Shown one piece after another: positions 59 to 40,200 of a stretch of 45,521 nt of DNA. The DNA is from Erysipelotrichaceae bacterium (GTDB lineage: Bacteria > Bacillota_I > Bacilli_A > ML615J-28 > CAG-313), in the NCBI GenBank assembly GCA_015059015.1, contig SVBG01000012.1:1-45521 (forward strand), given 5' to 3'. Each line of letters starts with the position of its first letter. The first letter of the stretch is position 1. A program made the translations under genes and the position numbers. The notes under the pieces are model-generated. The model was not told where the DNA came from. It was given only the letters and a program-made list of their open reading frames with translations, and searched no databases.

Positions 59-1102
59 CTACTTCTTAGATTTTGGATCCATCGCATCACGCAGACCATC
101 ACCAACAAAGTTAAAGCCTAGTACTGCTAGAACAATTAAAATACCTGCTGGTAACCACATATTCATATAATATGATAAGATAACAGGATCTTTAGAACTT
201 GAAATCATTGTACCCCAAGCAGCATATGGTATTTGAACACCTAGACCTAAATAACTTAATGTTGATTCATATAGAATAATAGAACCAAGACCAAGTGTCA
301 TATTAACGATTAATTGAGGCATTACATTTGGAATTAAATGTTTAAAAATCTTTCTCCAAGTTGGAAGACCCATAACGTCAGTTGCAACAATATATTCTTG
401 TTCACGAAGTGATAATATTTGACCACGAACCATTCTTGCACAACCACTCCAACCAAAGACTGTTATAATTACCATTAGGAAATAAATTCTATTGGATGGA
501 TCAAAAAATTCTTTCAATGAATCAAGTACAGCAGACGCAATAAGTAAAATAGGTAACATCGGAATACAGTTGAATACATCAACTATTCTCATAATTATTT
601 GATCTACTTTACCACCAAAATAACCAGCTAACCCACCAAGGATTACTCCAAGGATTGTTTCTAATATTACTACTATAAAACCGATTGTTAAAGATATTCT
701 ACCACCATACATTAAACGAGTAAAAATATCCATACCTTTTTCATCAGTACCAAGTAAATGATCTTTACTAGGTTTTGCTTTTAAATTATCTGTAACAATT
801 TCTAATTGTTGAATAACAGTTTGTTTTTGACCGTATTCATCGATATATTCATGTTCAACTTCAATATAATTAATAACTTGTGTTCTATCTACTTCTGTTT
901 CTCCCCATCTATTATAAATAACAGGACCAAGGAATGAGAATAAGAATAAGAAAACAAGAATTACTAAACCTACAACTGAAAGTCTAGATCTAAAAAATCT
1001 TCTTAAGATAAGTTTAAATGGACTCATCTCTTTATATGTTTCTTCTTGGATAGGAGTTTCTTTTACTTCGTCTATTTGATTAATATTTTCTTTTTCAGAC
1101 AT
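59..1102 (-). CDS. oppC: Oligopeptide ABC transporter permease OppC
   Basis: This is one of the two membrane subunits of the oligopeptide importer. At 347 aa it is somewhat longer than usual. It has a short cytoplasmic N-terminus, a first membrane helix near residues 38-62, and an extracytoplasmic stretch of about 60 residues. The typical OppC core begins at HLLGTDEKGMDIFTRLMYGG, and the cytoplasmic EAA loop that contacts the ATPase is visible (QEYIVATDVMGLPTWRKIF, followed by KHLIPNVMPQ). The start has a strong AGGAGG site. It lies 11 bp after oppB and its stop overlaps the ribosome binding site of oppD, so it is in the opp operon. The acidic, Tyr-rich loop between the first helix and the core is longer than in most homologues I know. 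Confidence 0.93.
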   Translation of the reverse strand: MSEKENINQIDEVKETPIQEETYKEMSPFKLILRRFFRSRLSVVGLVILVFLFLFSFLGPVIYNRWGETEVDRTQVINYIEVEHEYIDEYGQKQTVIQQLEIVTDNLKAKPSKDHLLGTDEKGMDIFTRLMYGGRISLTIGFIVVILETILGVILGGLAGYFGGKVDQIIMRIVDVFNCIPMLPILLIASAVLDSLKEFFDPSNRIYFLMVIITVFGWSGCARMVRGQILSLREQEYIVATDVMGLPTWRKIFKHLIPNVMPQLIVNMTLGLGSIILYESTLSYLGLGVQIPYAAWGTMISSSKDPVILSYYMNMWLPAGILIVLAVLGFNFVGDGLRDAMDPKSKK

Positions 1103-1113: not shown

Positions 1114-2121
1114 CTATTTACCAAGTTTAACACGTGGGTCAACTACTGAATACATAATATCTGAGAATAATGTACCAATAACAGTTAACACCGCTAAGAA
1201 CATATTATATCCCATTACGAATGGAATATCACCTTCACTAAGTGCTTTATATGCAAGACGTCCAATACCATCAATCGCAAATACTTCTTCGGTAATCATC
1301 ATCCCACCAAATAATGATGGAAGAATTCCAGCAAGTAGTGTAACAAGTGGGATCATTGTATTTCTAAACGCATGCTTATAAATTACTTGTTTTTCAGGAA
1401 GACCTTTTGCACGAGCTGTTCTAATATAATCAGCATTTAATACTTCTAGTGTATTAGTTCTTGTATATCTCATTAATCCACCAAGTGATAAAATTACTGT
1501 ACACGCAATCGGTAAAACTAAGTGATGTCCCATATCAAGAAGTTTTGCCATAAATCCTGCAAAATCTTTTGTATATGTTTCACCTGCTGATATTAAACCA
1601 GTAGATGGGAACCATCCAAGTTCAACTGAAAATACTTTTACTATAATAGCAGCAAAGAAATATGTAGGTAAACTTATACCAATCATTGTAAAGATTGTAA
1701 CCGCATAGTCACGCTTTGAATATTGGTGCGTTGCACTTGTAATACCAAGTGGTATTGCAATAGCAAATTGAAGCACAGTCGCAATAACTGCTATTGCAAA
1801 TGAAACCCACATGTTATCACCAATTACTTCTGCAACAGGTTTTTCATATTTAAATGAAGTACCAAAGTCACCTTTTAACATATTTGTAAGCCACGTAAAG
1901 TAACCATCAACTAACCCTTTAAATGAATTATCACCAATACCATATTGTGCTTTAAATTCAGCTAATTGATCTAACGTAATTGTACCTTGTTGTAATTGAG
2001 ATGAGAATTTGATATCCAAATAGTCATTTGGCATCATTCTAACTAATGTATAAATTATAATTGAAACACCTAGAAGAACAAATATTGAAATGAACAATCT
2101 TTTAAGAATATATTTTAACAT
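1114..2121 (-). CDS. oppB: Oligopeptide ABC transporter permease OppB
   Basis: This is the partner permease of OppC. The 335-aa protein starts with the standard N-terminal helix (MLKYILKRLFISIFVLLGVS). It contains the binding-protein-dependent transport domain with six membrane segments and a clear EAA motif (ADYIRTARAKGLPEKQVIYK, then HAFRNTMIPLV). The C-terminus YSVVDPRVKLGK is typical of OppB/DppB. GAGG lies 7 bases upstream of the ATG. Its gap to oppA is 25 bp and to oppC 11 bp, consistent with one transcript. The exact substrate (di- or oligopeptide) cannot be told from the sequence. Confidence 0.94.
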   Translation of the reverse strand: MLKYILKRLFISIFVLLGVSIIIYTLVRMMPNDYLDIKFSSQLQQGTITLDQLAEFKAQYGIGDNSFKGLVDGYFTWLTNMLKGDFGTSFKYEKPVAEVIGDNMWVSFAIAVIATVLQFAIAIPLGITSATHQYSKRDYAVTIFTMIGISLPTYFFAAIIVKVFSVELGWFPSTGLISAGETYTKDFAGFMAKLLDMGHHLVLPIACTVILSLGGLMRYTRTNTLEVLNADYIRTARAKGLPEKQVIYKHAFRNTMIPLVTLLAGILPSLFGGMMITEEVFAIDGIGRLAYKALSEGDIPFVMGYNMFLAVLTVIGTLFSDIMYSVVDPRVKLGK

Positions 2122-2146: not shown

Positions 2147-4723
2147 TTATTTTGTTTGATTTAATCTAACTGTATGAAGATCTGATAATAATCCACTATA
2201 AGGAGATAAATCTGAGTTTAGTGATGATTCATCAATTTTATTAATGCTATATGCAAATAAATCATCTCTTTGATATGTAGGAAGTTCAACTGCAAGCATC
2301 ATAACGATATCAAGTGCTTCAGCATAAATAGCAGCACGTTCATCTTGATCTGTAGTTTCACGACCTTCTTCAATTAATTCTGATAATTCTTCAACTAAAG
2401 CTAATTCCTCATTATACTTACCACCAGTATTTTGAAGAATTTGTTTATAACCCCAGTTTAGAGTTGAAGTAGCAGTTGAATCTTTATGATAAACTTGATA
2501 CATATCAGGGTCAATTGTTGAACTCCATGCAGCAGCCCAAACAGCTAAGTCACCATTTGCAAGCTTAGATAATGCTTGAGCATCAGTTGCAACAGTAATT
2601 TCAAAGTTAATTGAATTTAATAATTCACTAGCTTTATAGAATGCATTAAATGCAGGGTGATCAGTTTCACTACCAGCAATAGTAAATGTATATTTAAGTT
2701 TAGTAGAACCATTTGTATAAACACCATCACCACCAACATTGTAGCCAGAATCTTCAACAAGTCTAACTAGGAATTCTTTTTGTTCATCTTCTGTAAAATA
2801 GTCACCTGCTTTTTTACCAAGTTCATCACAATAATCAGCATAATCAGGATTAACAACATCTAAATTAGATGGAACAGGACCACCAATAAATGGATAATAT
2901 GCAGTAGCACCTGTTGGATAAGCCCAGCTTGTAAGTGACATTGAACGATAAATTGCAGAAGCAGTATTTCCATAATAACTAACTGTCATCGATGTATCAA
3001 TTGAATGCATAATAGCTTGTCTAACTTTAATATCAGGAACAAATCCAGCATTAACACCAATATAACCATAACCTGAAGTTTCAATTGATTTATTTTCTAT
3101 ACCTTCACCTTTTTTACCATTTAATTCTTGAATAGTTTTAGGATTTGAGTTAGGTTGAACATAATCTACTTCGTTATTATATAAAGCATTAAGTAAACCA
3201 CTGGATGCAACTACTTGATAGTGAACATATTTAATTTCAGGTACACCACCAATATAGTGTTCATTTCTTGTGAAATATAAAACGTTATTATTTAAGAAAT
3301 CTCCCGCTCTAACACCTTCTGTTTCATGGTTAGAGTTACATGCAACATAAGGACCAGCACCAACTGGAACACCAAGTTTTTCTTCATTTTTAATTACTTT
3401 AGTCATAAATTCTTGACTTGAATATTCAACACCAAAGTTAGATTCAAAGTCAAATGCACTAATATAAGGCTCAGCAGAATAATAATACATTGGAGCAACA
3501 CTAAATGCAAAGTTCCAAATAGCTTTAGGGTCAACACCATTAATAGTGATTGCTAAAACTTCATTTGAACCATTATTAACACTACCATCACTAGCATATG
3601 TAGGAGCAGCATAAGTCTTACCTTTTACAGTAACAGCCTCATCTTTATTGATAAACTGAATACCAGAAATATTAGTATAAGTTCTTTCATGTGTAGCATG
3701 ATATTCTTCTAACGCAACATTTACTAAATAATCATAAAATTTACCCGCAGTTTGCCAATATAATGCAACTTCAATTAATGCCATTGGAAGTTTATCTTCA
3801 TAAATAGTATTAATAGCTCTTTCTTTAGTCCAACTTTTTAACTCTGCTACATTATTTGTAAGTGAAGATTCAAGGCGTGCTTCTTTTTTATTCCATGATA
3901 AATAACCTTCATTATATAAAAACATTTCTACATCTGTAGTAAGTTTAACAGATTGAGTTACACCATATTCATCTTTAAAAGTAACACTCTTATATGCACC
4001 ATCACCAGAGTTTTTGTAGTCAGTTTCTAATTCTTCTTTAAATAATTCACATACTTTATTAAAATCATCAACAATATTTTCAAAGCCATCATCTTCTGAA
4101 TATTCTTCTAAAGCATCTTTAAATTCATCTAATGAATAAGAATAATCCTCTTTATCATCATATATATATTCAGCAGCAGTAATTAAATAATCAATTCTAC
4201 TTGATGCTTCAATATAAAATTGTTCCATAAATCTTTCTTGTGATTTTTCATCACCTTGTTGAGTACGATATTCTTTTAACCCAACAATATCAGTTGAATA
4301 AATTGTACTTGAACCTGTATATACAGGGTCTAAATAAACATATAAATTAAATAGAACATCTTTAATAGTAAGTGGTGATCCATTTGAAAATTTAACGTTA
4401 TTTTTAAGTACTAAATAATATGTTGTTGTATCTTCAATTTCATCGTACACTGAATCAACATCTAGTGCAACAACAGCTTCATCCGCGCCATAAGTAACAT
4501 TACCTTTTGAATCGTTGCCAAGCATACCAATTTGTGTCATACCAACAATTTGGCTATCTGGTGCAGATGATGAATAAAATGGATTAAATACTTTATCTAA
4601 TTCTTGAGAAGCAAGAAGTAGTGGAGTATCTTCATTATTTTTATTTCTTTTACATCCTTTCTTACAACCAGCAGCTGCAAGAATAGTTAACACTACAAGT
4701 GTCAAACAAATAATTCTTTTCAT
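2147..4723 (-). CDS. oppA: Oligopeptide-binding lipoprotein OppA, oversized
   Basis: This is the substrate-binding protein of the Opp importer, held outside the membrane as a lipoprotein (signal peptide ending AAAGC, lipid Cys20). Extracellular solute-binding family 5 features are present: KNNVKFSNGSPLTIKDV near residue 107, IGVNAGFVPDIKVRQAIMHS in the second lobe, and a C-terminal portion with DPDMYQVYHKDS. At 858 aa it is about 300 residues longer than a usual OppA. Most of the excess is an acidic, mainly helical insert at about residues 155-350, plus a further loop near 360-395. GGAGGG precedes the ATG. It sits 16 bp after an InlB-repeat lipoprotein gene and directly before oppB, so it is co-expressed with the surface protease at the head of the operon. 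The insert could alter ligand size or give a partner-binding surface; that is inference. Confidence 0.9.
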   Translation of the reverse strand: MKRIICLTLVVLTILAAAGCKKGCKRNKNNEDTPLLLASQELDKVFNPFYSSSAPDSQIVGMTQIGMLGNDSKGNVTYGADEAVVALDVDSVYDEIEDTTTYYLVLKNNVKFSNGSPLTIKDVLFNLYVYLDPVYTGSSTIYSTDIVGLKEYRTQQGDEKSQERFMEQFYIEASSRIDYLITAAEYIYDDKEDYSYSLDEFKDALEEYSEDDGFENIVDDFNKVCELFKEELETDYKNSGDGAYKSVTFKDEYGVTQSVKLTTDVEMFLYNEGYLSWNKKEARLESSLTNNVAELKSWTKERAINTIYEDKLPMALIEVALYWQTAGKFYDYLVNVALEEYHATHERTYTNISGIQFINKDEAVTVKGKTYAAPTYASDGSVNNGSNEVLAITINGVDPKAIWNFAFSVAPMYYYSAEPYISAFDFESNFGVEYSSQEFMTKVIKNEEKLGVPVGAGPYVACNSNHETEGVRAGDFLNNNVLYFTRNEHYIGGVPEIKYVHYQVVASSGLLNALYNNEVDYVQPNSNPKTIQELNGKKGEGIENKSIETSGYGYIGVNAGFVPDIKVRQAIMHSIDTSMTVSYYGNTASAIYRSMSLTSWAYPTGATAYYPFIGGPVPSNLDVVNPDYADYCDELGKKAGDYFTEDEQKEFLVRLVEDSGYNVGGDGVYTNGSTKLKYTFTIAGSETDHPAFNAFYKASELLNSINFEITVATDAQALSKLANGDLAVWAAAWSSTIDPDMYQVYHKDSTATSTLNWGYKQILQNTGGKYNEELALVEELSELIEEGRETTDQDERAAIYAEALDIVMMLAVELPTYQRDDLFAYSINKIDESSLNSDLSPYSGLLSDLHTVRLNQTK

Positions 4724-4739: not shown

Positions 4740-6443
4740 TTAGTTAGATTCATTTTCAAATAAAACATTTGAATCATCACTAATTAAAACATTATCTAAT
4801 TCTTTATAACAGAACTTATCTAAAACTATAACTTTTTCACATTCAGGAATTCTAGTAATATCGAAACTTCCACTAAATGAAACATTCTCAAGTGTTGTAT
4901 TTTCCATAATAGTAGCAAGTGGAGCAAACACTAAATATTTAATTTGTGAGTTTCTTGTATCAATATCAACAATAACATTATCAAATGTAATATCTTTAAT
5001 AACAGAATCTTTTAATTCAAAGAATAGTGAAACATATAAATAATTAGAACCATTTTCTAAATCATCAATTTCACCTTTTAAGCCAGTTCTTGAATCATCA
5101 TAATCAATTGTAAAATTAGATACAGTATATCCATTACCTAAAATTTCACCTGAATAACTATCAAATATTAATTCATCTTCATCAAAATCAATATCATTAC
5201 AAAGATAAATATTTTCACCCTTACTAATAGCATTCTTAAACTGTTTTGCAGTTTTAACAACCGTATAATCACCTTCAATTAAGTTCAAATATACTTTAAT
5301 TGATAAATCTTCATCACCACCTGGGTGAGTAAAGTTATTATTCCAAGGATTACCAAATTCATCTAAATAACCAAGTGATGTATAACCTTTAACAGTTTTA
5401 ACATCTAATTGACGTTCGCTAAACTTAGCACCTTCTTTACATTCATAATCACTTAAGAATACATCATTTCCATCTTTATCTTTATAATATAATTCATACT
5501 TATAAGTTCTATTTACTTCCCATTTAGCATAAAGAGTAACACCATCTATAGTCATTCGGTCATTTTCAAAATCCCATTTATCACTATATGTTACATTACC
5601 TGATTCATCAACAGTCTTAGTTTGATACCAACCTTCAATATGGTAACCACTCTTTAAAATCATATCGTTTGGATTAGTTTCTAAAACATTTGGATCAACA
5701 ATTAACATATCAATAATAGAACCATCAAAATTATATAAATAACTTACTCTTTCATGAGAGTTTTGACAAACACCACCTTCTAAATAGAAGACAGCTTTAC
5801 CAGTACCAACTTCTGCATAAAGGTATGTTGTATCAATAATTGATGTAAATCCAGTTGGTGATAAATAATTTGCAGAAAAACTCTTTAATTTACCTCCATC
5901 AACCACAATTTTAATGTTCATATTAGATATATTACCTAAGCTTTTATTTAAAAATAATGAGCTTATTTTATTATCTAAAACCTTTGCAGTTAAAGTATAA
6001 GTATCATCATTAACACTTAAATCATAATCATTTTCTAAAAACTCTTCAGATAGAACAAAAGTCAAATAATATGTTGGAACAGTATATGGATTTTCATATG
6101 TTGTACCATCAACTGTAGTATACTTAACATCATCAATAGTTTTATACTCAGTAAGAGATTCATCATAAAGTTGAGTACCTGTTGTTGATAATTTCTTTTC
6201 TAATACGCGTACTTCTGATCTAACTTTTTCACCACGAACAAGTGTAAAATTAGTATTTTTATGATAAACTTCAAAATCACTATCCTTTATTACTTGTGTT
6301 TCGTTATACCCAGCAAGAATACTTTCAGATGCATAAATATCATTAACTAATTTTTCAAAATTAGTTAATTTCTTTTTACCACAGGAGCTAATCATTAAGA
6401 CAAGCACCATAGTAAAAACTAATAATATAATTCTTTTCTTCAT
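4740..6443 (-). CDS. Surface lipoprotein with InlB-type repeats and a beta-helix-like C-terminus
   Basis: This 567-aa predicted lipoprotein has signal peptide MKKRIILLVFTMVLVLMISS followed by lipid Cys21. Residues about 25-230 form a domain I do not recognise. Residues about 240-308 end in the hallmark of the Listeria-Bacteroides (InlB B-repeat/Flg_new) fold, with GYHIEGWYQ and DGVTLYAKW. A second, looser copy follows to about 388. Residues about 395-540 (QFKNAISKGENIYLCNDIDF, then ILGNGYTVSNFTI) look like a right-handed beta-helix with GLUG-like turns. AAGGGG lies 7 bases upstream of the start. It is 15 bp after the giant S8 protease and 16 bp before oppA. The likely role is adhesion or substrate capture at the cell surface beside the protease and importer; no enzymatic motif is visible. 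Confidence 0.75.
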   Translation of the reverse strand: MKKRIILLVFTMVLVLMISSCGKKKLTNFEKLVNDIYASESILAGYNETQVIKDSDFEVYHKNTNFTLVRGEKVRSEVRVLEKKLSTTGTQLYDESLTEYKTIDDVKYTTVDGTTYENPYTVPTYYLTFVLSEEFLENDYDLSVNDDTYTLTAKVLDNKISSLFLNKSLGNISNMNIKIVVDGGKLKSFSANYLSPTGFTSIIDTTYLYAEVGTGKAVFYLEGGVCQNSHERVSYLYNFDGSIIDMLIVDPNVLETNPNDMILKSGYHIEGWYQTKTVDESGNVTYSDKWDFENDRMTIDGVTLYAKWEVNRTYKYELYYKDKDGNDVFLSDYECKEGAKFSERQLDVKTVKGYTSLGYLDEFGNPWNNNFTHPGGDEDLSIKVYLNLIEGDYTVVKTAKQFKNAISKGENIYLCNDIDFDEDELIFDSYSGEILGNGYTVSNFTIDYDDSRTGLKGEIDDLENGSNYLYVSLFFELKDSVIKDITFDNVIVDIDTRNSQIKYLVFAPLATIMENTTLENVSFSGSFDITRIPECEKVIVLDKFCYKELDNVLISDDSNVLFENESN

Positions 6444-6458: not shown

Positions 6459-9400
6459 CTAGTAAACTTTTCTTTTAATTAAAATAAACGCAATAGTACC
6501 AATAGCACTAATACCAAGTACACTCGATACAACAATTAGTCCGACTTTATTTACTGATGTTGTAGGTAAGTTACTAATTTCTGTTAAGATATTAACATCA
6601 TCATTTAAATCTTTAAAGTACTCGTCAAATTCTTTTTTAAATGCATCTACATTTGTTTGATCAATATATTTTTTATCATGTCTATTTACAATATCAAGAC
6701 GTTTAACAATTGAGTAATAATCATCAATCTTATCAAATTCATATTTAGCCCCTAGTGCTTCAATATCTTTAATTAAGAATTCATATACATGATTAATTCT
6801 TTCATCATTTAAAGCTTTCCAAGCAGTTTCTGCATTGACTAACTTCGTATATAAACTATCTAAATAGTCTTGTGAATAACCATATTTAGTCAAATCTTGT
6901 GTAACTACATTATAAGCAGTTCTTGCATCTTGAATAATAAGTTCATCAGAAAGTTCAACATTTTCTGGAATCAACACTACTTTATTTAAATAGTCAATTG
7001 AATTTGAATCAAGCGCAACATAATCACTTGCTACTTTATTATCTAAATCAAAATATAATTGATATAAAATATTATCATATCCAGATACATCTTCATTTGC
7101 AGGAATTATAATATTTAATTTTTTAGTTTTACCAACTAAATCTATAAATTGAGCATAATATAATGGATAATAGCCATTGAATTGGAAATATTTATTAAGA
7201 AGTTGATAAATTTCTGAATCTGGTTCATATTCAATACCTAAATCAGTTACAGTACCTTCAAGTGCAGGTGCTTTAACAGACTTAAATTCAACAGTCTTAA
7301 GTCTTGTACAACCATAGAATGCATAATTACCAATATATTCAAGTGTATCAGGGAAAACAAGTGTCTCTAAATTTTTATTAAAATATCCAGCATACTCATC
7401 AATTCTTATAGTATTAAATAATACCTCATAAGTTGAACCATCCTTATTAGTTGGGTATGATGTAAGTAATAATTTATTATTAGCAGTAACAGTATATAAA
7501 ACACCATTATCAAGTTTTATATAATCATTTACATCACAAGTATCATTACCATCTAAATCAGTAAATTGAGTCATATGTTGATTATAATAAAATGCTGTAG
7601 GAGCAATATATTTAATTGTATTAGGAAGTTTAATTTCAGTAACACCAATACAACTAAGTGCTTGAGCTTCAATACGTTCAACAACTTTTAAAGTTACATC
7701 AACTAAATTATTACATGTAATAAACGCTCCAGCTTCTAAAACTAAAACATTTGATAAATCAACACTAGTTAAACCAACACATCCAGAGAATGCTTCCATA
7801 CCAATTGATGTTGCATTTGACAAATCAATACTTTCAAGTGCTGAACAATTCATAAATGCTCCACCCTCAACTGTTTTTATGCCATTAATATTTACTTTTG
7901 TTAAGTTATTATCATTTGCAAATAAACACTCAGAAATAACTTCAAGATTTGAAATAATTGTAACTTCCTCTAAATTAATTAAATTGCTAAAAGCAAATGC
8001 ACCAATTGATGTAATATTTTTACCAAGTGAAATATTAGTAACACTTGTAGAACCATAAAATGCATAATCACCTATTGAAACTAATGCATCACCAAATGTA
8101 ATACCGGTAAGTTTATTAGCCGCTTGATTATTCATTGTACCAAATGCATAATCTCCAATAGTTTCTACGTTTTCAAAACCAATTAATTCAAGATTTACAC
8201 AACCTATAAATGCATAAGACGCAATATTTTTTAAAGTATTACTTGAAACATTAATTAAACTACTACAATTTCTAAACGCACCTTCATTAATATCTATTAC
8301 ATTTTCTAACACTAAATCATTTAAAGAAGTACAATTTTCAAAAGCATATTCTCCTATTACTTTTGTATCAACATTTGCACTTAAAAGACTAGTACAATTG
8401 CTAAATGCATAAGAAGATATTTCATTTGCTTTAACAACAATACTTGTTAATTTCTTCATATTAGCAAATGCACCTTCGCTAATAATATTTGAATTAATAT
8501 TTAACACTTGTAAAGCTGTTGAAGCAAATACATAATCATTAAATGCATCTAAATATTCCATATTATTAACATTTTCAAGACTTACACAATTATTAAAAGC
8601 ATAAGATTGTACATCAATAGTTTTATTAGGTAAATTTACAGTTTTTAAATTAACACAATTTTCAAACGCACGAGAACCAAGTACTTCAACATTATTTCCA
8701 AGTGAAAGTGTAGTTAAATTACTAATACCACTAAATGCACCATCTGCTATATATTTATAAGCATCAGGAACAATGTAATCATTATAAGCATAACCATTAG
8801 CACCAAGATAAATAGTTAAATTATCTAAACTTACAAGTAAATGGTTACTAACTTTATAAGAACTATGATTTTCATCTACCATAAATGTATTTAATTTATT
8901 ACAGCCAGTAAAAATACTTCCATCATTAACTGAAATAACCGAATTAACTTGGAATGTTACTTTACTTAAATTTACACAATTACAAAATGCTTCTTCTTCA
9001 TAATGAGTTGCACTATTTGGAAGAACTACTTCTTCTAAACTAATACAATTATTAAAAGCACTTTGATAAATAAATTCACTTCCTGCATTTTCACTAAAGA
9101 TTACTTTTTCTAATTTAGTACAATTATTAAATGCTTTTGCACCAACATATACTAAATTATTAATTACATTTAATTCAACTAAGTCTTTACAGTTTTCAAA
9201 ACAATTATTAGGAATTCTATCCGCATAATATGTTAAAGTTGTAAGTCCTGAGTTTTTGAACATTCTTTCAGAGAAATTTGTATATTTTCCATTATCAATT
9301 GATTTTAAATTAGTACAATTAACAAATGTTTCAATACCTGCATTTCTTAATGCTGTTATATCAACATATGAAAGAGACTTACAATTTGCAAAAGCACGTC

Positions 9401-12400
9401 TACCAATTGCATATGCACTTTCTAAATTTACATTATCTAATTTTTCACAATCTTCAAAAGCATTATTACCAATCATACCAACATTTTCTAAATTAATATT
9501 TTCTAAATTTGTTGCTTTAGAAAATGCATATTCACGTATAATTTTACAAGATTCACCCTTATCATTTGATAAGAAATTAACAGTCTCTAATGCTGTACAA
9601 TTATAAAATGCATATTTTTGAACTTCTAAAACATCATATGGAATTGTAACACTTGTAACAGTATTATTTGAAGCAGGGGTTTTACCAGCATCATAATCGC
9701 CTTCAGGTAGTTCAATTGTGTAGTCATTTGTATAAAGCGAGAAAGCAAATGGTCCAATATATAATATTCCTTCATCATCAGGTATTACAACATCTCCACC
9801 AAGTCCTTTATAAGCAACTAGAGTTTGTCCTTCAATTACAAATTCATTTTTAACAATAACACGCTTAGAAGCTACTAAAGATGATACTCTACCATCAATT
9901 TCAACTTTTAATGTAATTGTAGCATTACCTTCTTTTAATGCTGTAACAACCCCATTTTCATCTACTGTAGCAACTTTTTCATTAGTAGAAGACCATATTA
10001 AAGTATAATCTTTTAAATTCCATGGTTCTAATTCGTATCCTAATTTCACTTGTTCACTAGGGAACATTGAAATATTAGGTTTTTCTGTAAAGAAGAAACG
10101 ATCACCTGTTTCACCGATATCTGATGTTTCATTTCCATCAATAAAGGCTTTTATTGTATCAAAATAAGTAAACTCAATATCAGTTAATTTCCCAGTTGTG
10201 CTATCTACTTCTTTATCTCTTACTCTAATTCTTAATTTAATTTCATATTTATAACCCATTTGGTCAAGCGTAGAACAAGTTATTTGACATGTTCCAGGAG
10301 CTATTGCTTCAATTTGACCATTTTTTACTTTTATAACATTTTCATCAGAAGATGTCCAATTTAATTTAGAGAAATAAATTGCTTGTACCTCTTCATTTTC
10401 ACCCATTTGAGGATCATTTGAAGTAAGCATTTTAGATAAATCTAATTCATCACCAACATAAATGTCTTTATAATATTGATAAATATTATTACTTTTTGAC
10501 GAATAAAATTCTTCTTTATATGATATTTCAGAAGAGTTTGTACCAGGCAATGTTACAAATGAATATGATTGATTAAGTGCATAGTCATCAACTAAGAAAC
10601 CTAAGCCATTAGTCATTGGGAATTCACCACTTTCAATCTCACCATATTGAAGTAAATCCATATAATCAGTAATTTCTATTGTAACTTTATTAACTTGCCC
10701 TCTTTCTCCATAAATTGGAATTACATTTTCCGATAAAGAAACAAGTTTACCTTCTGAAATTGTAAATGGTCTAATTGATTGAGCATAGTGATTATCATAA
10801 ACATAAACATCACAGTAATAACGATAATCTTTTAATGATTTATCATACTTAGAATAGAACTGTACATCTTTAATAATTGGTGATTCATAATCAACATAGA
10901 ATGAGAACTCAAACGTATTATTAAGATTTGTTGATAAACCACCATCACCATAGTCTAATTCAGCTGTCATAGTAAATGTATATTTAGTATTATTTTGAAG
11001 ACCAAGTTCAAGTGCTGTAACATTAATCATATCATAGCCTGGAATAATTTGACCACCAAAATATGCTTTATGTTCATCATATTTTATATGTTCATAAACT
11101 ATTTCTCCAGTCGAAGCATTTTTAATTACTGTTGTCATCTTTTTAGCATTACGAAGGAGACCTGCATAAACAGTTGTAATACCATTAATAGTTTCCAAAC
11201 TATATCCAATTGCCGCTTTATCTTCAGTAGCAGGAATAGGATCATATTTTGATTCATCAATTTCATACACATAAGTTCCAAGAGGAATTATATAACTATA
11301 ATAATATGTACCTAAAGGAGTAGTAGCATAATAATCAGCTTTTAATTTATCTTCTTCATCTATTGAACCATCATGTGCTTCAGATTCTACTTCAAAATAT
11401 GTTTTATCAAATAAAGGTGCTTTTGTCCAGTCACCAAAGAATGCAAGGAAAGGAATTGAAAGATCAATTTCATCTTCATTTAATGATTCTAATACAACAA
11501 AACCTTCTACATAAATACCATTAATAAATGACTCTCTAATATATTTCTTTTCAGCATCAGTTAAACTAATTATATAAGTAACTTCAACTTTACCATTTGG
11601 ATCAACAATTAACTCATCACCTGATAAAATACCATCACCTTTTACACTTTTTTCTACTTTAGGATTAAGCATATAAGCTTTTTCCGCAACATATGCAGGA
11701 TCAGCAGTAGATAAACTTTCAGTCATCGTAAAATCATTTAAATTATATCTTAGTTCTTTATTTGATGTATTATGAACATTAAATTTAAGTTCATAAACAC
11801 CAGTTTCCTCAGGATCATCTTTGCATTCAATTTTTGCTTTAGTAGAACCATCAACAGAAAGATAAGCAAGAGAATCAAGTGCATATTCTAAATTACCAAG
11901 TCCTGCACCTTGTTTTCTTGGCGAATATGGATTACCATATTCATCTAAAATAATCGTACCAGTTGACATAACAAGTTGATTTGCAAGATTATTAATTTCC
12001 ACTGCAGTCATATCAGGATATCTTTCTTTTAATGCTTGACGCATTAAAATAATAACACCACAAAGGTTTGGACAAGCCATTGAAGTACCAGAAATTTCAT
12101 CATAACCACCACCAGGAACAGAAGATAATATTGAACCACCATGAGCTGTAATTTCAGGTTTAAGTGATAAATCAGATACAGGACCCCAAGATGAGAAATC
12201 ACTCATAAATGGTCCAGCTAAATAATTTTTATCAAGTGTTAATACACCTGTTCCTTTAGCTGCTAAATATTCACCGTCATCTTTATTAATTGAGCATAGT
12301 GGAATAGCAAGACCACTACCTGCATTCATATATACTTCACCAGCGATATTATTATAAATAATACAACCAATTGCCCCTTGTGATAAAGCAACTTGTGCTT

Positions 12401-13940
12401 TTTCTTCAAAACTTGTTTCACCACGTTTAACAAGAGCAATTTTACCTTTAACATCAATATTTGAATAGTTTACTTTTTTACCTACACCTGGAACAGTTAC
12501 ATATTCAATTTCCATTGTAACATCACCAGTATCAAGTTCTTCATATAACATCTTATAAAAATCATATGCTTTACCAGCATTATTATTGGCATTATTAAAG
12601 AAGAATGTATAACCAGTTTCATCAATAATATAACTACTCTTAACACCACTAATTGAAGCAACAGACATTGTCGACTTAAATGTACCTGGACTTCCTACTG
12701 TTGCAGAGTCTGGATTAGACGCTTTATTTGTATTTGAGTTTTCTCCACCATAACCACTACTATAGTCATTACTTGCAGCAACTAAAAGAGAAATACCTGC
12801 AGCTTCAATCTTATCGTAGACTACATTAATATATTCATTATCAGATGAACGTGAAAAACCACAAGCAGAACCAAGTGATAGATTTATAGCATCAACACCA
12901 AGTAGAATTGCATCTTCAAGTGCTGCTAAAATATCATCTTGAATAGCACCATTATTAATATCACCAAATACTTTCATAAGTACAAGTTGTGTATTAACAG
13001 CAACACCAGTAATTACATCATCTTTACCACCAATAATACCTGCAACATGTGTTCCATGATCAGAATCATATGGAGCAACATCAGCATCTTTATCAGCATA
13101 GTCATAAGCAAATGGAATTTTAGCATTTAAATAAACATCTTGTGATTTTATATCTTGTTTATATCCATAAGCCTTAGTATCATATAAAACTTTTTCAACA
13201 TCTTTAATTGATATCATTGGCTGATCAGGCATATTTTGGAATACAGTATGATGTACATCAAAACCAGAGTCAAGAATTGCAACACTTGTATTATTTCCAT
13301 CATACCCAACACCACTTGAATTGAATATTCCCGTTTCATAAACATTAACAAAGTTAGTAACTGTATCACCATTTGATACTTCAGCATTACTAACACTTGC
13401 AACGTTATATTCAGGTTCTGAATATACTTCAGCTATTGAAACATTAATATCTAAACCAGCTTTTTCTAGCGCTTTTAACTGACCATATGTTGTAGTTGCA
13501 GAAAAACCATTAAATAAAGTAGTGTAGGTATGTTTAACTTCATTAATGTATCCTGCATCAATTAATGTGTTCATCATCGCTTGTTGTTCAGCATTCATAG
13601 TCTTAACACTTGAATTTGCATATCTTGACGATGCATATTCATTTAGAGTATGATATCCTTGGTTATTTTCATTGTAACTATCAACCAAGCCAGTAGATTT
13701 AAGTGATATAATAACATTTACCAAATCATCATCTTCTAACATATCAATACTATATAATAAATCTTTGTTCAAATATTTTTCATTATCAGTAATACTTGCG
13801 ATTAAATCTGATTGATAAACATTCAAACTTATTTTATTATCAGTATCAACTTGTTCTTTATTTTCTTCAGTTAGCTTTGTACTACATCCAACTAATAAAA
13901 ACAGCAGTACAAAAACCAACGCTTTTTTAATAAAATTCAT
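6459..13940 (-). CDS. Giant lipid-anchored S8 subtilase with PA, Ig-like and BspA leucine-rich repeat domains (paralogue 1)
   Basis: This is a 2,493-aa surface protease. I start it at 13940 (MNFIKKALVF) rather than at the longer in-frame ATG at 14030. A GAAGGAG site precedes 13940, a consensus promoter lies between the two ATGs, and this start gives a lipoprotein signal (LLVGC, Cys19). Order of domains: a prodomain-like region (40-190); a subtilase core with Asp224 (AILDSGFD), His295 (DSDHGTHVAG), oxyanion Asn391 and Ser620 (SGTSMACP), interrupted by a PA domain at about 440-575; an Fn3-like beta domain from about 715; Ig-like BIG2 domains near 1190 and 1310-1360; about 36 BspA-type LRR_5 repeats at about 1375-2220; a helical stalk; and a C-terminal membrane helix with tail KRKVY. 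The core with a PA insert resembles lactocepin/C5a peptidase. It heads the operon that continues into opp, so the expected job is cutting host or dietary protein for peptide import. Confidence 0.92.
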   Translation of the reverse strand: MNFIKKALVFVLLFLLVGCSTKLTEENKEQVDTDNKISLNVYQSDLIASITDNEKYLNKDLLYSIDMLEDDDLVNVIISLKSTGLVDSYNENNQGYHTLNEYASSRYANSSVKTMNAEQQAMMNTLIDAGYINEVKHTYTTLFNGFSATTTYGQLKALEKAGLDINVSIAEVYSEPEYNVASVSNAEVSNGDTVTNFVNVYETGIFNSSGVGYDGNNTSVAILDSGFDVHHTVFQNMPDQPMISIKDVEKVLYDTKAYGYKQDIKSQDVYLNAKIPFAYDYADKDADVAPYDSDHGTHVAGIIGGKDDVITGVAVNTQLVLMKVFGDINNGAIQDDILAALEDAILLGVDAINLSLGSACGFSRSSDNEYINVVYDKIEAAGISLLVAASNDYSSGYGGENSNTNKASNPDSATVGSPGTFKSTMSVASISGVKSSYIIDETGYTFFFNNANNNAGKAYDFYKMLYEELDTGDVTMEIEYVTVPGVGKKVNYSNIDVKGKIALVKRGETSFEEKAQVALSQGAIGCIIYNNIAGEVYMNAGSGLAIPLCSINKDDGEYLAAKGTGVLTLDKNYLAGPFMSDFSSWGPVSDLSLKPEITAHGGSILSSVPGGGYDEISGTSMACPNLCGVIILMRQALKERYPDMTAVEINNLANQLVMSTGTIILDEYGNPYSPRKQGAGLGNLEYALDSLAYLSVDGSTKAKIECKDDPEETGVYELKFNVHNTSNKELRYNLNDFTMTESLSTADPAYVAEKAYMLNPKVEKSVKGDGILSGDELIVDPNGKVEVTYIISLTDAEKKYIRESFINGIYVEGFVVLESLNEDEIDLSIPFLAFFGDWTKAPLFDKTYFEVESEAHDGSIDEEDKLKADYYATTPLGTYYYSYIIPLGTYVYEIDESKYDPIPATEDKAAIGYSLETINGITTVYAGLLRNAKKMTTVIKNASTGEIVYEHIKYDEHKAYFGGQIIPGYDMINVTALELGLQNNTKYTFTMTAELDYGDGGLSTNLNNTFEFSFYVDYESPIIKDVQFYSKYDKSLKDYRYYCDVYVYDNHYAQSIRPFTISEGKLVSLSENVIPIYGERGQVNKVTIEITDYMDLLQYGEIESGEFPMTNGLGFLVDDYALNQSYSFVTLPGTNSSEISYKEEFYSSKSNNIYQYYKDIYVGDELDLSKMLTSNDPQMGENEEVQAIYFSKLNWTSSDENVIKVKNGQIEAIAPGTCQITCSTLDQMGYKYEIKLRIRVRDKEVDSTTGKLTDIEFTYFDTIKAFIDGNETSDIGETGDRFFFTEKPNISMFPSEQVKLGYELEPWNLKDYTLIWSSTNEKVATVDENGVVTALKEGNATITLKVEIDGRVSSLVASKRVIVKNEFVIEGQTLVAYKGLGGDVVIPDDEGILYIGPFAFSLYTNDYTIELPEGDYDAGKTPASNNTVTSVTIPYDVLEVQKYAFYNCTALETVNFLSNDKGESCKIIREYAFSKATNLENINLENVGMIGNNAFEDCEKLDNVNLESAYAIGRRAFANCKSLSYVDITALRNAGIETFVNCTNLKSIDNGKYTNFSERMFKNSGLTTLTYYADRIPNNCFENCKDLVELNVINNLVYVGAKAFNNCTKLEKVIFSENAGSEFIYQSAFNNCISLEEVVLPNSATHYEEEAFCNCVNLSKVTFQVNSVISVNDGSIFTGCNKLNTFMVDENHSSYKVSNHLLVSLDNLTIYLGANGYAYNDYIVPDAYKYIADGAFSGISNLTTLSLGNNVEVLGSRAFENCVNLKTVNLPNKTIDVQSYAFNNCVSLENVNNMEYLDAFNDYVFASTALQVLNINSNIISEGAFANMKKLTSIVVKANEISSYAFSNCTSLLSANVDTKVIGEYAFENCTSLNDLVLENVIDINEGAFRNCSSLINVSSNTLKNIASYAFIGCVNLELIGFENVETIGDYAFGTMNNQAANKLTGITFGDALVSIGDYAFYGSTSVTNISLGKNITSIGAFAFSNLINLEEVTIISNLEVISECLFANDNNLTKVNINGIKTVEGGAFMNCSALESIDLSNATSIGMEAFSGCVGLTSVDLSNVLVLEAGAFITCNNLVDVTLKVVERIEAQALSCIGVTEIKLPNTIKYIAPTAFYYNQHMTQFTDLDGNDTCDVNDYIKLDNGVLYTVTANNKLLLTSYPTNKDGSTYEVLFNTIRIDEYAGYFNKNLETLVFPDTLEYIGNYAFYGCTRLKTVEFKSVKAPALEGTVTDLGIEYEPDSEIYQLLNKYFQFNGYYPLYYAQFIDLVGKTKKLNIIIPANEDVSGYDNILYQLYFDLDNKVASDYVALDSNSIDYLNKVVLIPENVELSDELIIQDARTAYNVVTQDLTKYGYSQDYLDSLYTKLVNAETAWKALNDERINHVYEFLIKDIEALGAKYEFDKIDDYYSIVKRLDIVNRHDKKYIDQTNVDAFKKEFDEYFKDLNDDVNILTEISNLPTTSVNKVGLIVVSSVLGISAIGTIAFILIKRKVY

Positions 13941-14228: not shown

Positions 14229-14248
14229 ATATATCAAGGAGAAAACAT

Positions 14249-15215: not shown

Positions 15216-15254
15216 ATAAGATAATTAAAAATTAAAGTAATTTCAAATAAACCC

Positions 15255-15272: not shown

Positions 15273-15311
15273 AATTATTATTATTTATATTTCAATTTAG
15301 TATATACTAAA

Positions 15312-16568: not shown

Positions 16569-16588
16569 AATTTCATCCTCAATTAAAT

Positions 16589-28609: not shown

Positions 28610-31600
28610 CTATTTTTCTACAATTTGAATTGCATAACGCATTGTTACATCATTACCGTTTACAGAAACAGTAATAGAGAAGTAATAAATACCTGTATTT
28701 AAGAAATCAATATCATCGATATAAATTAAAGATTTCTTTAAAGTATTATTAGTGATTTCTCCATCTTTTGTAATAATTGTAATATTATCATAGAATGCTT
28801 TTTTAGCTAAAACTTTATTTGTAAATTTAGTTAAAGTAAAGTTTTTAATTGAAACTACAGCACCATCAATAATAAATGCATTTACAAATACTTCTTTATT
28901 AAATTCTTCATTTCCTAAATATTTAACAGTTAAAGTATTATTAAATGTATCCATATATACTGCACCATCAGTTCCATAATTAAATGATGGTGTAATATTT
29001 ACATAATGCATATTAATTAAATTACCAACAGTTGTGTATTCAAATAATGTTTCAGCATATTGTTTTTTATCAAAATTGATTAATCCCATTCCATAACCAT
29101 CAAAGAAGATATACATATTTTCAGATACATATCTACCAAAGTAAGTATCTTTTTCAACAATTGTAAACGTATTATCATCTAGATTAAGAATGAACTTATA
29201 ACTAAATGGACTCTCAGTTGCAGACCCTGCATCAAAAATATAAACAGTATCATTTTCATAATCAATACCACCATATTTTTGATTTCTAACAGCAGCACCA
29301 CTTACGCTAAATATTGAATTACTTCCAATTTTTAAATAGAATCCTTCACTTTGATCAACTGATAAAATTGCAGTTTCACCATTAATTGTTGTAGTAAATG
29401 TTTGATTTACATATTTATATAGAACTTCACTATCTTTAGAATTAATTTGACCAACTTTTTCTGTTGTCATTGTAAATTTATATACATCACCTAAATAAGT
29501 TAAAAATGAAGAATTACCAGTTTCTTGTGTAAATGTATCATCAAATACTACTTCACCATGATTTACAATATATTTATAGTCACTTGAAAGTCTTTCATAT
29601 AAATGAACCTTTAATGCGTACCACATAGTTTCATTAGTTTCTTTATTAGTTACTTCAAAAATATCAAGTGAATAACCATTATAATTTTGTTCTAAAATAT
29701 ATGAACTACTATAATTAATAACTACTTTTTGATTAAGTTCCCAAATTTCTTCATTGAAATAAATTAATGGTCTTTTAGCATCAATAAATGGCATTCTTAA
29801 ACTATTATCTGGATCAATAACAACAATACCATTATTATAACTTAACGTAAATTCGTAATTATTAAATTTAATATACATTGTATTTTCATCAATACCATAT
29901 AAAATTTCAGCTAAAGAGCCGTTAACAGACATTTGTCCATCTGCAGTAATATATAGCTTTTTAAGTTGAGTTACACTAGTACCTTCTTCTTCATAGCCTT
30001 CTTCATCAGTTGATGAACTTGTAGGAATAGTAGTTAATAATGTATCATAAACTCCAACCATTTTTAGGTTTAAAACGATAAATTCAACTGTTTCACTAAA
30101 TCCTTTAAAATTAATTTTAACAGGATATACACCAGGAGCATTTGTATTAATTTTACCTTCTATCATATCTTGTGTAATTTCAACATTTTCACCATTTAAT
30201 AAAACAGTAAAAATATCTTTAGTATAAACAGTAGTTCCTTCAAATACAAATGTTTTATTAACACTAATTTCAACATTTGCTTCAATCATTACATTAAAGC
30301 TTGTTCTAACAGGTTCATTTTCAGGACCATTTACATATACATCAACTAAAACTTCTTGTAAGCCAATTTCAGCAAAATCAATAGTAGAAAGAACTTCTGC
30401 ATAAGTTGCAAGTGTAGAAGCTTGTGATGCAATTTTTGTAAGTTTTTGATTTACGCCATTAATTCGAACTACTAAATTATCAAATGCATCATATGAAGTT
30501 ACACCTTCTTTTAATACAACAGTATCATTTAAAACTATAATACTATAAATCTTATCAACTACTTTATATGTAATTTCTTTAGTAATTGGTGTTTCCTTAG
30601 TTATACCTAAGCTTGAATCAACATATGAAATAGTAATAGTTGCTGTATATGTACCAACAGTATTAAAGTCTACATTATCAGTATTAATATATTGATCAAT
30701 ATCTGTGAAATTAATTCCATTTACAATAACACTAAAATCACCCGCAAAATTATATGAAGTTTTTGAAGTTCCTTTAACTATTTCAATAACATTAGATTTA
30801 GTGTAATTAATGATAACACCTTGTTTTACTTCAACAACAGCAGTTTCTTCATACCCTAGATAATAAAGCTTAATAATGTTTTCTCCAACTTCTGCATAAT
30901 TAATAACACCATCAATCATATCTAAAGTTACAGGAATTTCTACATTATTTTTAACAATATTAAATAAAGTTGTTAAATCAATATAACTACTATTAGGATA
31001 AATAATTAAATCTTTATGAGTAATTACAATTTCACCATTTGGTACCACTTTAATATTACATGAACTAGTTTTAACTGCTTGTCCTTCAGTATATGTAATC
31101 TTAATTTCATAAACTTCATTTTCTACAGCATTTTCTAAACTAGATAAATCAATCATATCTAACGTTACAAGTCTAGCCTGTCCATCAAGATAAATACTAA
31201 ATAAAGATGTATAGTCAAATGAACTTAATTCTTCTTTTGGAATTTCTTTTAAAACATATGAATTAATAATTTCAATATCATGGTCAGAAATTACATTGAC
31301 TGAAAGTGTCATTGAAGTTTCACCAAGTGAAACTTTATATTGATATACACCTACATTAGTTGTTATATTAGACTCTACCATATCAGAAGTAATAGGTTTA
31401 ATTTTACCATCAACAACAACTGTAAAATATTGATTAAAATCATATGTTTCAATTTCAGATTGTTTAATAGTAATTTCATATGTACTTAATTTAATTTGAT
31501 AGTTTATTTCTTCAACATTAACAACTAATTCAAGAATTTCACCTTTATATTTGCAAATAACTTTATAAGCACCAGCTATAGTTCTAAGATTAGATAAATC

Positions 31601-32044
31601 TAAATATTCATCTAATACTTCAACATTTTCTTCATTGTCAGTTATTTCAAAATACTGTTTATAATCATGATTAAATACAGTTAAATTATTTACATTTACT
31701 TCTTCTACATCTTTTAAAGTGATACTTATTGCATCAGCTTTTAACACCTCAACAGTTATAGAGGCCATTTTATTTTTATAAGTACATAATACAATATAAT
31801 TTCCAACTTCAGCTAAAATATTACTTAAATCTAAATATTCTTTTTTAACTTCAATGTCTGAAGTTCCTGATTTAATTGTAAATAAAGTTGTATAATCATA
31901 ATCAAGAACTTCATCGACATTTAAAGTAATTTTTTCCTGATTTGGTGTAATTGTAATGTTTTCAACAGGAGTTTCATCACAACCAATTAAAACAAGGGCT
32001 AATGCAATCAAAACAACAGCTATAAAACGAATATTATTTTTCAT
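28610..32044 (-). CDS. Large surface lipoprotein with eight Ig-like repeats
   Basis: This 1,144-aa lipoprotein has the signal peptide of MKNNIRFIAVVLIALALVLI, then G and lipid Cys22. Eight repeats of about 70-90 residues follow, at about 28-101, 105-178, 183-252, 257-334, 339-406, 411-496, 500-589 and 592-659. Each has an aromatic-rich strand (YDYTTLFTI, FDYTSLFSI), a V-T-x-D-M-I-D type strand, and a closing G-x-Y-x-V...V-x-V pair. They look like a bacterial Ig-like fold, forming a stalk of about 630 residues. The remaining about 480 residues are beta-rich with many Tyr and no motif I recognise. Strong GGAGGG is present. Last gene of the operon that contains the second giant protease. Probably a substrate- or host-binding surface protein; no enzyme signature is visible. 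Confidence 0.75.
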   Translation of the reverse strand: MKNNIRFIAVVLIALALVLIGCDETPVENITITPNQEKITLNVDEVLDYDYTTLFTIKSGTSDIEVKKEYLDLSNILAEVGNYIVLCTYKNKMASITVEVLKADAISITLKDVEEVNVNNLTVFNHDYKQYFEITDNEENVEVLDEYLDLSNLRTIAGAYKVICKYKGEILELVVNVEEINYQIKLSTYEITIKQSEIETYDFNQYFTVVVDGKIKPITSDMVESNITTNVGVYQYKVSLGETSMTLSVNVISDHDIEIINSYVLKEIPKEELSSFDYTSLFSIYLDGQARLVTLDMIDLSSLENAVENEVYEIKITYTEGQAVKTSSCNIKVVPNGEIVITHKDLIIYPNSSYIDLTTLFNIVKNNVEIPVTLDMIDGVINYAEVGENIIKLYYLGYEETAVVEVKQGVIINYTKSNVIEIVKGTSKTSYNFAGDFSVIVNGINFTDIDQYINTDNVDFNTVGTYTATITISYVDSSLGITKETPITKEITYKVVDKIYSIIVLNDTVVLKEGVTSYDAFDNLVVRINGVNQKLTKIASQASTLATYAEVLSTIDFAEIGLQEVLVDVYVNGPENEPVRTSFNVMIEANVEISVNKTFVFEGTTVYTKDIFTVLLNGENVEITQDMIEGKINTNAPGVYPVKINFKGFSETVEFIVLNLKMVGVYDTLLTTIPTSSSTDEEGYEEEGTSVTQLKKLYITADGQMSVNGSLAEILYGIDENTMYIKFNNYEFTLSYNNGIVVIDPDNSLRMPFIDAKRPLIYFNEEIWELNQKVVINYSSSYILEQNYNGYSLDIFEVTNKETNETMWYALKVHLYERLSSDYKYIVNHGEVVFDDTFTQETGNSSFLTYLGDVYKFTMTTEKVGQINSKDSEVLYKYVNQTFTTTINGETAILSVDQSEGFYLKIGSNSIFSVSGAAVRNQKYGGIDYENDTVYIFDAGSATESPFSYKFILNLDDNTFTIVEKDTYFGRYVSENMYIFFDGYGMGLINFDKKQYAETLFEYTTVGNLINMHYVNITPSFNYGTDGAVYMDTFNNTLTVKYLGNEEFNKEVFVNAFIIDGAVVSIKNFTLTKFTNKVLAKKAFYDNITIITKDGEITNNTLKKSLIYIDDIDFLNTGIYYFSITVSVNGNDVTMRYAIQIVEK

Positions 32045-32066
32045 AAACGCCCTCCATCAATTAGGA

Positions 32067-34868: not shown

Positions 34869-34890
34869 GTCCTTTTCTCCTTTTTAAATT

Positions 34891-37236: not shown

Positions 37237-40200
37237 TTTCTTTACCTCCTTTGCCTTTTTTTACATATTTAATAACAAAGAATGCACCAAATGCAATTAC
37301 ACAAACACCTAATAAAGATCCACAAACAATTAAAATAACTTCACCAGTTGATAATCCATCTTCACCTGGAGTTGTTGGTTCTTGAGGATTATTATTATTG
37401 TTTTGTAATTCTAAATATTCTTCATATGCTTTTACTAGATTATCATAATCCTTTAAATCTAGTAAATATTTTTCATCAATAGTAAGTTCGTTTACTAATC
37501 TAGTTACTTCATTTAATTGAGCAATCATTGACTCACTAAATTCAGTAGGTAATTGTTTTAATAATTCATTAGTATCTCTTACTAATTTTTTAGCATTTTT
37601 AATTTTAATTTCTTTAATAGTTAGTTGGGCAGTTTCAACTGCACTTACTAATTCATTCCATTCTACTTCTGCATAACCAAAGAATGTATAATCTTGGCGA
37701 ATAGCTCTTAAAGCAGTTAATGCTTCATTTACTTTATCTTCATGAGCAATAACGATTTGTTCATAATCTTTAATTTCTTTTGCAAGTGTAACAAATTTCA
37801 CTAAATTAGGTTCTTTTGCAAGTGTAGTATTTCTTTCTGCATTTTCTACTTCACCAAAGTATACTAAGTATACAATTGAATCATATCCTTCAACATCTTT
37901 ATTAGCAGGTAGAACCATTTCAATTGGCTCTTTTTTACCAACTAAATCAATAAATGTATAATAATATAATTCAAGGCCAAATAGTTCATATTGATTATGA
38001 ATGATATCATAACCTGGATCAGTTTCTTCTAACACTGCATTAGAATTATATGAACATTCTAAACTTGGAGCAACATAAGAATTAAATTCTACAACTTTTA
38101 ACTTGTCATATCCATAGAATGCATAATTACCAATTGATTCAAGTCCATCAGGAAGCACTACTTTTTGAACATGTTTATTAGCATTACCAGCATAATAATC
38201 AATTCTTGCAGTACCATCTATTACATATAATGCAACAATATCCATATCAGCAGGAACTGATGCAAGTTCTAATTTGCCATTATATAAATATGTATATAAC
38301 ACACCATCAACAAGTTTTGCATAATCATTAATTTCACCAGATTTCTTACCATCTGCTGTATAGAATGATGCAAGTTTTTCACATCCATTAAATGCTAAAC
38401 TATCAATCTTAGATAATTTATCACTAAATGTAAATGAAGTTAAGAATAAGTTATTTTGGAATGCAGCATAACCAATTTCTTCTAAATTAGGAGCCTTAAT
38501 GCTACTAATACGAGCACCTTGGAATGCAAAGTCTTTAACAACTTTTAAGTTATTCATTACAAGATTACCACTTACATATGTATCTGCAAATGCAGCTTCA
38601 CCAATAATTTCAGCACTACTTAAATCAACATTTTCTAAGTATACACTTGATGTAAATGCATAATCACTAAATTCTTTAATATTTTCTAGATTAATATATT
38701 CTAGATATTCACAACCTGCAAATGTATATAAACCAATTTTTTCAATTGTATTAGGTAAATTTACTGTTTCTAGTAATACACAATACGCAAATGTATAATC
38801 ACCCATTGAAGTAAGTGATGATGGAATTGTAATTTCAGATAATTTTTCACAACCTAAGAATGCACCATCACCTAAATGAGTAAGTGTATTTGGAAGTGTT
38901 ACATATGTAAAGATTGGAGCACCACCAAGTGTTGAATATCTTGAGAATGCACCTTCACCAATTGATTCAACTTTTGGCATTAATACACTAACTACTTTTG
39001 AACAATCACTAAATGCATAATTACCAATTTCAGTACAATTTGCAAGATTAACTCTTAATAAATTACTACAACTATAGAAACATTCTTCAGGGATAATTTC
39101 TACATATGATAAATCAATTGTAGATAAATTACCACAATATGCGAAACATCCTCTACCAAATTCAACATTAGCCTCAGGCATAATTACACTTGATAATTTA
39201 GTACAATTTTGGAACGCACCAAGACCAAATGATGTATTAGCACCAATTGTAACAACTTCTACTGTTGATTGGAAGAAAGCACCTTCACCATAAACAGCAT
39301 CACTACCAATAACTACATTTTGTAATCCTGTATTTGCAAATGCATAATCACCTACATTTTTAACACTATCTAAATTTTCTAAATTTACAAGTGCTTTATC
39401 ATAATTAAATGCATGTTGATTGATCGTAACACCACTAGTTGTTGGGAAAATAACTTTTTCTAATAATTCACAATTTGCAAATGAATAATCACCAATAATA
39501 GTATTAGGATTTACAATTGTTAAGGATTTAATATTTACACCAGAGAATGCTGCAGGAGCAATTTCAACATATTTTTCATCTAAAACATAATCATTATATT
39601 CATATGATGGCGCAGCAAAAATAACTTCAGTTTGATCTTTTGAAAGTAATAATACACCATCATTACTAACTGAATAATTATTATTATTTGCATCAACAAT
39701 AAAGTTTGTAATATCTGTTTCTTCAAAAATAGATCCTAAAATTTCACTAACATACGAATTTTCATTAAACTTAATTGTATTTAAACTTGTACATTGATAG
39801 AAACAATAACTACCAAGTGAAACATTAGAATTAGGCATTGTAAATGTTTCAAGTGCTGTATCACCATAGAATGTTTGAGCACCAAAGTATTCTACAGTAC
39901 CATTAATATTAAACTCAGTAAGTGCTGTACATTCACTAAATGCGCCATCTTTAATACCTACAAGTGAGTTATGTAATGTAACTTTTTCTAACCTTTCACA
40001 TAACGCAAAACAATACTCTGGAATTTCTATTTTTTCATATATATCAACCGTTATTAATCCAGTACTTACAAACATTGCGTAAGATAGTTTAGTATTTTCA
40101 TTTAATACAACTGATTCAAGATTTGTACAATCTTTAAATATTTCACTACCTGAATTTCTAAGTGCCGATAAATTTACATGTGTAATAGATTTACAACCTT

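Follow-up and report, generated by a model that had tools for sequence, protein, structure and literature searches.

How do uncultured Bacilli and Clostridia of the gut and rumen obtain amino acids, and what might a giant polypeptide that joins an S8 protease to a long array of BspA-type LRR units contribute to this? To our knowledge, amino acid acquisition in these bacteria is poorly understood. The polypeptide considered here, PROT1, is encoded in a 45,521-nucleotide stretch of DNA from an Erysipelotrichaceae genome, the whole of which we refer to as the window. A protease with receptor-like repeats and its own peptide importer would be a concrete candidate for amino acid acquisition. We propose, at a probability of about 0.68, that PROT1, together with a paralogue designated PROT2, would act as a cell-envelope proteinase that is tethered to the membrane and supplies an oligopeptide ABC transporter dedicated to it.

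PROT1 (6459..13940, minus strand; 2493 aa) was delineated by translation, Pfam domains and orthologues. Its frame is open without interruption from 14030 to 6459 on the minus strand. A TTG is present at 14030, and the likely start is the ATG at 13940, which is directly followed by the lipoprotein signal MNFIKKALVFVLLFLLVGC; residue numbers given here count from this ATG. The best minus-strand -35/-10 match, at 14020-13992, lies just upstream of the ATG and was rejected as a promoter, as the number of such matches equals that in shuffled sequence. Within the single chain, Pfam recognizes Peptidase_S8 (E 2e-36), PA (3e-14), fn3_5 (1e-8) and Big_2 (1e-10), all above cut-offs, as well as LRR_5 in eight stretches (E 6e-127, 418 bits). 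Thus an S8 subtilase, an Ig-like domain and BspA repeats do share one polypeptide, as the original prediction held. The order of parts is a lipoprotein signal, a propeptide, the S8 domain (11901..13298) with its PA insert (12264..12473), fn3_5 (11445..11795), Big_2 (9909..10061), the LRR units, a helical stalk and a C-terminal membrane helix, all on the minus strand. The propeptide region (residues 20-195; 13356..13883) precedes the S8 domain and has a weak Pfam match to Inhibitor_I9, which scores above the cut-off in relatives. Compared with a relative from goat cecum (L042), dS is 0.44 in the propeptide but 0.00-0.02 across Big_2, the LRR units and the C-terminal region, a drop that points to a recombination mosaic within the gene.

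The catalytic residues of PROT1 are intact. The predicted triad of Asp224 (codon 13271-13269), His295 (13058-13056) and Ser620 (12083-12081), all on the minus strand, is invariant among 24 relatives, as is the oxyanion residue Asn391 (12770-12768), in agreement with the complete triad and PA insert claimed earlier. The S8 domain, which was delimited by Pfam, PDB search and alignment, has the PA domain inserted within it and is followed by fn3_5, the arrangement that defines the S8 cell-envelope proteinases. Its best PDB relative is the C5a peptidase 7edd (E 7e-68), and the nearest solved relatives of the catalytic part are C5a peptidase and the chemokine protease. The NCBIfam model NF040553 (SGO_0316/0317 serine peptidase) gives PROT1 256 bits, far under its 1400-bit cut-off, and identity to lactococcal PrtP is 28-31% (tblastn).

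How is such an enzyme held at the cell surface? The single signal that had been foreseen is present and is, more precisely, of the lipoprotein type (13884..13940, minus strand), with the lipobox LVGC and its cysteine at residue 19. This cysteine is invariant in 15 relatives and conserved in more than 90% of a set of 24. In the wider family, 49 of 77 members have the lipobox pattern and many clostridial ones have plain signal peptides. The lipobox is therefore typical of the nearest relatives of PROT1, and the C-terminal helix is general: the C-terminus is hydrophobic in nearly all complete relatives. In PROT1 this helix (6462..6551, minus strand), which had also been anticipated, ends in a basic tail and follows the C-terminal domain and helical stalk (6576..7253, minus strand), defined by conserved columns and by helices in the model. 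No LPXTG precedes the membrane helix, with one LPTTS occurring further upstream, and the genome has no match to sortase. Lack of a cell wall was considered as the reason for the missing sortase and is ruled out by seven Mur-ligase-type matches in the genome; the absence of sortase despite these ligases fits anchoring in the membrane rather than the wall. Should the propeptide be cleaved away, as commonly happens in subtilases, the N-terminal lipid would be lost together with it, and the C-terminal helix would then retain the mature enzyme.

The LRR array covers approximately residues 1370-2225 (7266..9833, minus strand), as determined by Pfam, a weight-matrix scan and a structural model. The scan finds 26 strong units and a few degenerate ones, against none in shuffled sequence, so the figure of about 36 repeats given earlier was too high. 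An AlphaFold2 model of this half, built from 32 sequences, is a long beta-rich repeat array with a pLDDT of 90. Its closest match by VIA-align is the TpLRR structure 6mlx (Z 24.2, 2.0 A over 192 residues), followed by 4fs7 (Z 21.1), 4fd0, 4h09 and PcpA 4cp6 (Z 19.9). On this modelling, the array has the BspA-type (TpLRR) fold.

The joining of a protease to such an array raises the question of whether the gene is real, and the original prediction had itself allowed for a chimera of assembly, in which a protease gene was wrongly attached to an LRR gene. Near-identical opp repeats at both contig ends do indicate assembly trouble nearby. However, two other genomes encode orthologues of equal length, at 97% and 79% identity, and a profile scan recovered 77 frames of more than 2,300 aa with an S8 domain, from separate assemblies and with the same domain order, the complete ones having both the LRR array and the C-terminal domain. 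Furthermore, sequence is conserved across the protease-LRR junction, and Pfam confirms the S8 and LRR architecture in three distant frames. Recurrence in independent genomes rules the chimera out, and we give it practically no weight. Dozens of gut MAGs from Bacilli and Clostridia encode the architecture at approximately 2,450-2,700 aa, and the S8-LRR combination is thus widespread in these groups and not an oddity of one genome. The records of the best 80 GTDB matches are named Bacilli, Anaeroplasma, Acholeplasmatales and 'Clostridia'; nearly all are MAGs, and animal guts are their source. One record with the architecture is that of a named strain, Pumilibacter intestinalis CLA-AA-M10, which makes the locus testable. 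One locus (L205), from Candidatus Fimimonas, is assigned to Myxococcota in the NCBI taxonomy and groups among clostridial loci, perhaps through a slip of taxonomy. The next-nearest proteases are divided. LRR_5 finds no match in L135, L138 or L064, of which L064 is truncated at a contig end, whereas G008 (L063:1834-11313) has a distant sister architecture, an S8-PA-fn3-LRR_5 protein that at 3,159 aa is longer still and has 14 LRR_5 stretches; no opp gene is found in the 8.7 kb downstream of it.

The two halves of PROT1 evolve at very different rates. In a comparison of this genome with G004, dN is 0.034 and dS 0.63 for the S8 domain, against a dN of 0.30 and a dS of 0.74 for the LRR array, so that dN in the array is about nine times that of the catalytic domain at similar dS. 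The trend is the same in further species pairs, for the most part at lower strength. Change is concentrated in the middle of the array (residues 1620-1860; 8361..9083, minus strand), where identity drops to 25% over a stretch of 60 residues and the repeats best keep their structural Phe, Ala, Cys and Leu. When burial was approximated by hydrophobicity in other relatives, dN/dS was 0.77 (0.59-0.99) at exposed LRR positions, 0.23 at buried LRR positions and 0.05 in the S8 domain. The data do not establish positive selection on the middle of the array: a first dN/dS of 1.64 used core positions chosen after viewing per-position identities, and with the independent proxy the exposed middle gives 1.13 (95% 0.73-1.79).

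A fast surface over a conserved core and a conserved protease fits a recognition surface, and it fits an unconstrained stalk as well. The array could be a stiff support that raises the protease and has no binding partner, its surface drifting freely and the nutritional role unchanged; we regard this as possible, though on the doubtful side. Lost constraint would also be expected to give a dN/dS of 0.77 at exposed positions and of about 1 in the middle, with buried positions conserved, and other S8 envelope proteases carry spacer domains, which likewise counts for a stalk. Against this, about 850 LRR residues with similar repeat number are kept across Bacilli and Clostridia, which is more than a spacer would seem to need when a few Ig domains could take its place. 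Additionally, the BspA-type LRRs of other surface proteins have been linked to adhesion (PMC5476646). The earlier suggestion that the repeats aim the protease stands insofar as the fast LRR surface fits recognition, but nothing points to the host or mucosal ligand that was proposed with it, and the accompanying label of 'adhesin' is no more than an analogy to BspA.

The genes beside PROT1, about which the original prediction was silent, suggest what the protease may be for. PROT1, LipoA, oppA, oppB and oppC lie on one strand with gaps of 15, 16, 25 and 11 bp, and by this spacing PROT1 apparently opens an operon with a lipoprotein and oppABC. These are LipoA (4740..6443; 567 aa), OppA, a substrate-binding lipoprotein of the SBP_bac_5 family (2147..4723), and the permeases OppB (1114..2121) and OppC (59..1102), all on the minus strand; the contig ends before oppD and oppF, and both of these subunits are found in the second opp cluster of the genome and in relatives. 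The best matches of OppA, OppB and OppC are Opp4 (oligopeptide) models, all below cut-offs. The sole PDB relative of OppA at E 1e-5 is an OppA; the OppA of the window is distant from characterised peptide binders, and its Pfam family also has binders of other solutes. In LipoA (model pLDDT 89), two lipoprotein genes that stand apart in L146 and L167 are fused, and the form that the loci conserve corresponds to its C-terminal half. Support for LipoA as a PrtM-type foldase was sought and not found: neither Pfam nor NCBIfam finds a foldase domain, and a fold search with the whole model gives a weak match to LprF/LolA.

This neighbourhood recurs in two gene orders. In order A the protease precedes LipoA and oppABCDF, the protease and LipoA genes often overlapping or lying 10-15 bp apart; in order B LipoA and oppABCDF precede the protease, which is often followed by three lipoproteins. 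Among the 80 best relatives, oppBC lies alongside the protease in 66 (32 in order A and 34 in order B), all of their opp genes sharing its strand, and 13 of the remaining 14 are cut by a contig end. The single other locus, L148, has approximately 10 kb on both flanks without opp, and together with G008 it weighs against the link between protease and permease. Given that genome-wide searches match just four SBP_bac_5 genes and three S8 genes, the linkage is far beyond chance. Moreover, distances in a concatenated OppABC tree correlate with those in the protease tree (r 0.947), although this correlation alone is not proof, related genomes sharing their descent. The stronger point is a comparison of paralogues: the second opp copy of this genome lies at 0.30 from the order-B opp of other species and at 0.88 from its own first copy, from which it follows that protease-opp modules are inherited as units.

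The second module of this genome contains PROT2 (37220..44728, minus strand), a paralogue 42% identical to PROT1 and composed of the same domains, which the original prediction likewise left unmentioned. It is followed by three lipoproteins of 781, 933 and 1144 aa (28610..37236, minus strand), which are kept behind order-B proteases in many species. No NCBIfam model matches any of them; the 781-aa and 933-aa proteins are distant paralogues (22%). The C-terminal part of an OppF-type ATPase of the second opp cluster (44968..45519, minus strand) is cut by the contig end. Both contig ends (1-58 and 44968-45521) fall in opp ATPase genes, and the assembly was probably broken by the C-terminal oppF copies of C6 and C10, which share 96% identity. 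A circular contig was considered and rejected, as the window ends do not overlap and both lie in oppF repeats, which indicates an assembly break. Elsewhere in the window, a 919-aa secreted protein (24211-26970, minus strand) contains a Big_2 domain and the metzincin-like motif HEVGHILGLDD; neither a Pfam peptidase family nor a PDB entry matches it, and it is possibly another surface protease. Two alpha/beta-hydrolase-like paralogues lie near two acyltransferase (PlsC-like) paralogues at 14219-18351.

What, then, is the protease likely to serve? The genome has no match to the ILVD family, nor to IGPD, for which the control search missed B. subtilis. These two enzymes are needed for branched-chain amino acid and histidine synthesis, and their absence, together with the near-constant opp linkage, argues for protein nutrition and not for adhesion or immune evasion. 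We consider it unlikely that PROT1 is instead an adhesin-protease that some ligand of the host or mucosa directs and that acts on a host defence factor in the manner of C5a peptidase. That reading draws on the nearest solved catalytic relatives, C5a peptidase and the chemokine protease, on the resemblance of the BspA-type LRR to known surface adhesins and on the animal-gut origin of the MAGs; yet the near-constant linkage to an oligopeptide permease speaks against it, and PrtP uses the same S8-PA-fn3 core for milk protein nutrition (PMC2827410). The carriers are moreover a broad range of gut commensal MAGs, and no host target was found.

Signalling peptides enter some Gram-positive bacteria through Opp systems, and PROT1 could accordingly process such peptides or the cell's own envelope proteins, with Opp importing the signal; in another variant it would attack neighbouring bacteria, some carriers being named Anaeroplasma and rumen mycoplasmas having been called bacteriolytic and proteolytic (PMC8941964). 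However, no response regulator or small peptide gene is seen beside the loci, Pfam finds no muralytic domain in PROT1, and enzymes of 2,500 aa, encoded twice in each genome, seem better fitted for bulk work. Taken together, both variants seem improbable.

In the nutritional reading that we prefer, PROT1 would be exported as a lipoprotein, its propeptide would probably be removed, and the C-terminal helix would then keep the mature enzyme at the membrane, with the Ig/Fn3 domains and the LRR solenoid carrying the protease outward. The LRR array would probably bind protein substrate or protein-bearing material, the S8 domain would cut the protein into oligopeptides, and these may be handed over to OppA and imported through OppBCDF. 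More tentatively, gut Bacilli and Clostridia might here possess a protein-utilisation locus, a protein counterpart of polysaccharide-utilisation loci, in which one polypeptide both captures and cuts, diversification of its LRR surface selects the protein substrate, and its own permease and accessory lipoproteins are co-inherited with it. A protease and importer joined as in the preferred reading would suggest that BspA-type LRR repeats can serve substrate capture, and not adhesion alone.

Literature searches, whose coverage excluded most subscription journals, found no description of a bacterial S8 protease and BspA-type LRR in a single chain, and no paper on a cell-envelope proteinase with oligopeptide transport and LRR; LRR_5 and Peptidase_S8 occur together just in a Gemella paper, as separate proteins. 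The sole earlier joining found is a TvBspA protein of Trichomonas vaginalis with BspA-type LRR and a partial S8 domain (PMC2843621); unlike PROT1, it is eukaryotic, a single entry and without an operon. The BspA-type (TpLRR) surface proteins share the LRR_5 repeats and fold with PROT1, but those compared here are not proteases. The streptococcal C5a peptidase and chemokine protease and the SGO_0316/0317 family are the best relatives of the catalytic half, from which PROT1 differs in lacking an LPXTG and a genome sortase match and in having the LRR array in its C-terminal half. Lactocepin and C5a peptidase-type proteases had been contrasted with PROT1 as bearers of Fn3 and wall-anchor regions; the wall-anchor part is indeed replaced, whereas an Fn3-like domain, fn3_5, is present. 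Experimental precedent for the proposed flow comes from Staphylococcus aureus, in which the collagen products of secreted aureolysin support growth via Opp3, with a different protease and no LRR reported there (PMC6495380). The closest parallel is lactococcal PrtP with Opp, likewise a surface S8 protease with a PA insert and an oligopeptide ABC transporter, in which protein is cut outside and the peptides are imported (PMC2827410). PROT1 departs from PrtP in its membrane anchors in place of a sortase anchor and in its long LRR array, and no PrtM-like foldase is seen alongside; furthermore, protease and opp genes are neighbours in the PROT1 loci, whereas in L. lactis SK11 prtP/prtM and the plasmid-borne oppABCDF lie on different plasmids (PMC2827410). 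By analogy, the locus is best read as the known concept of PrtP and Opp, here gene-linked and with an LRR array in place of wall-anchor regions, and if this is true it extends the lactococcal concept to a large unstudied group.
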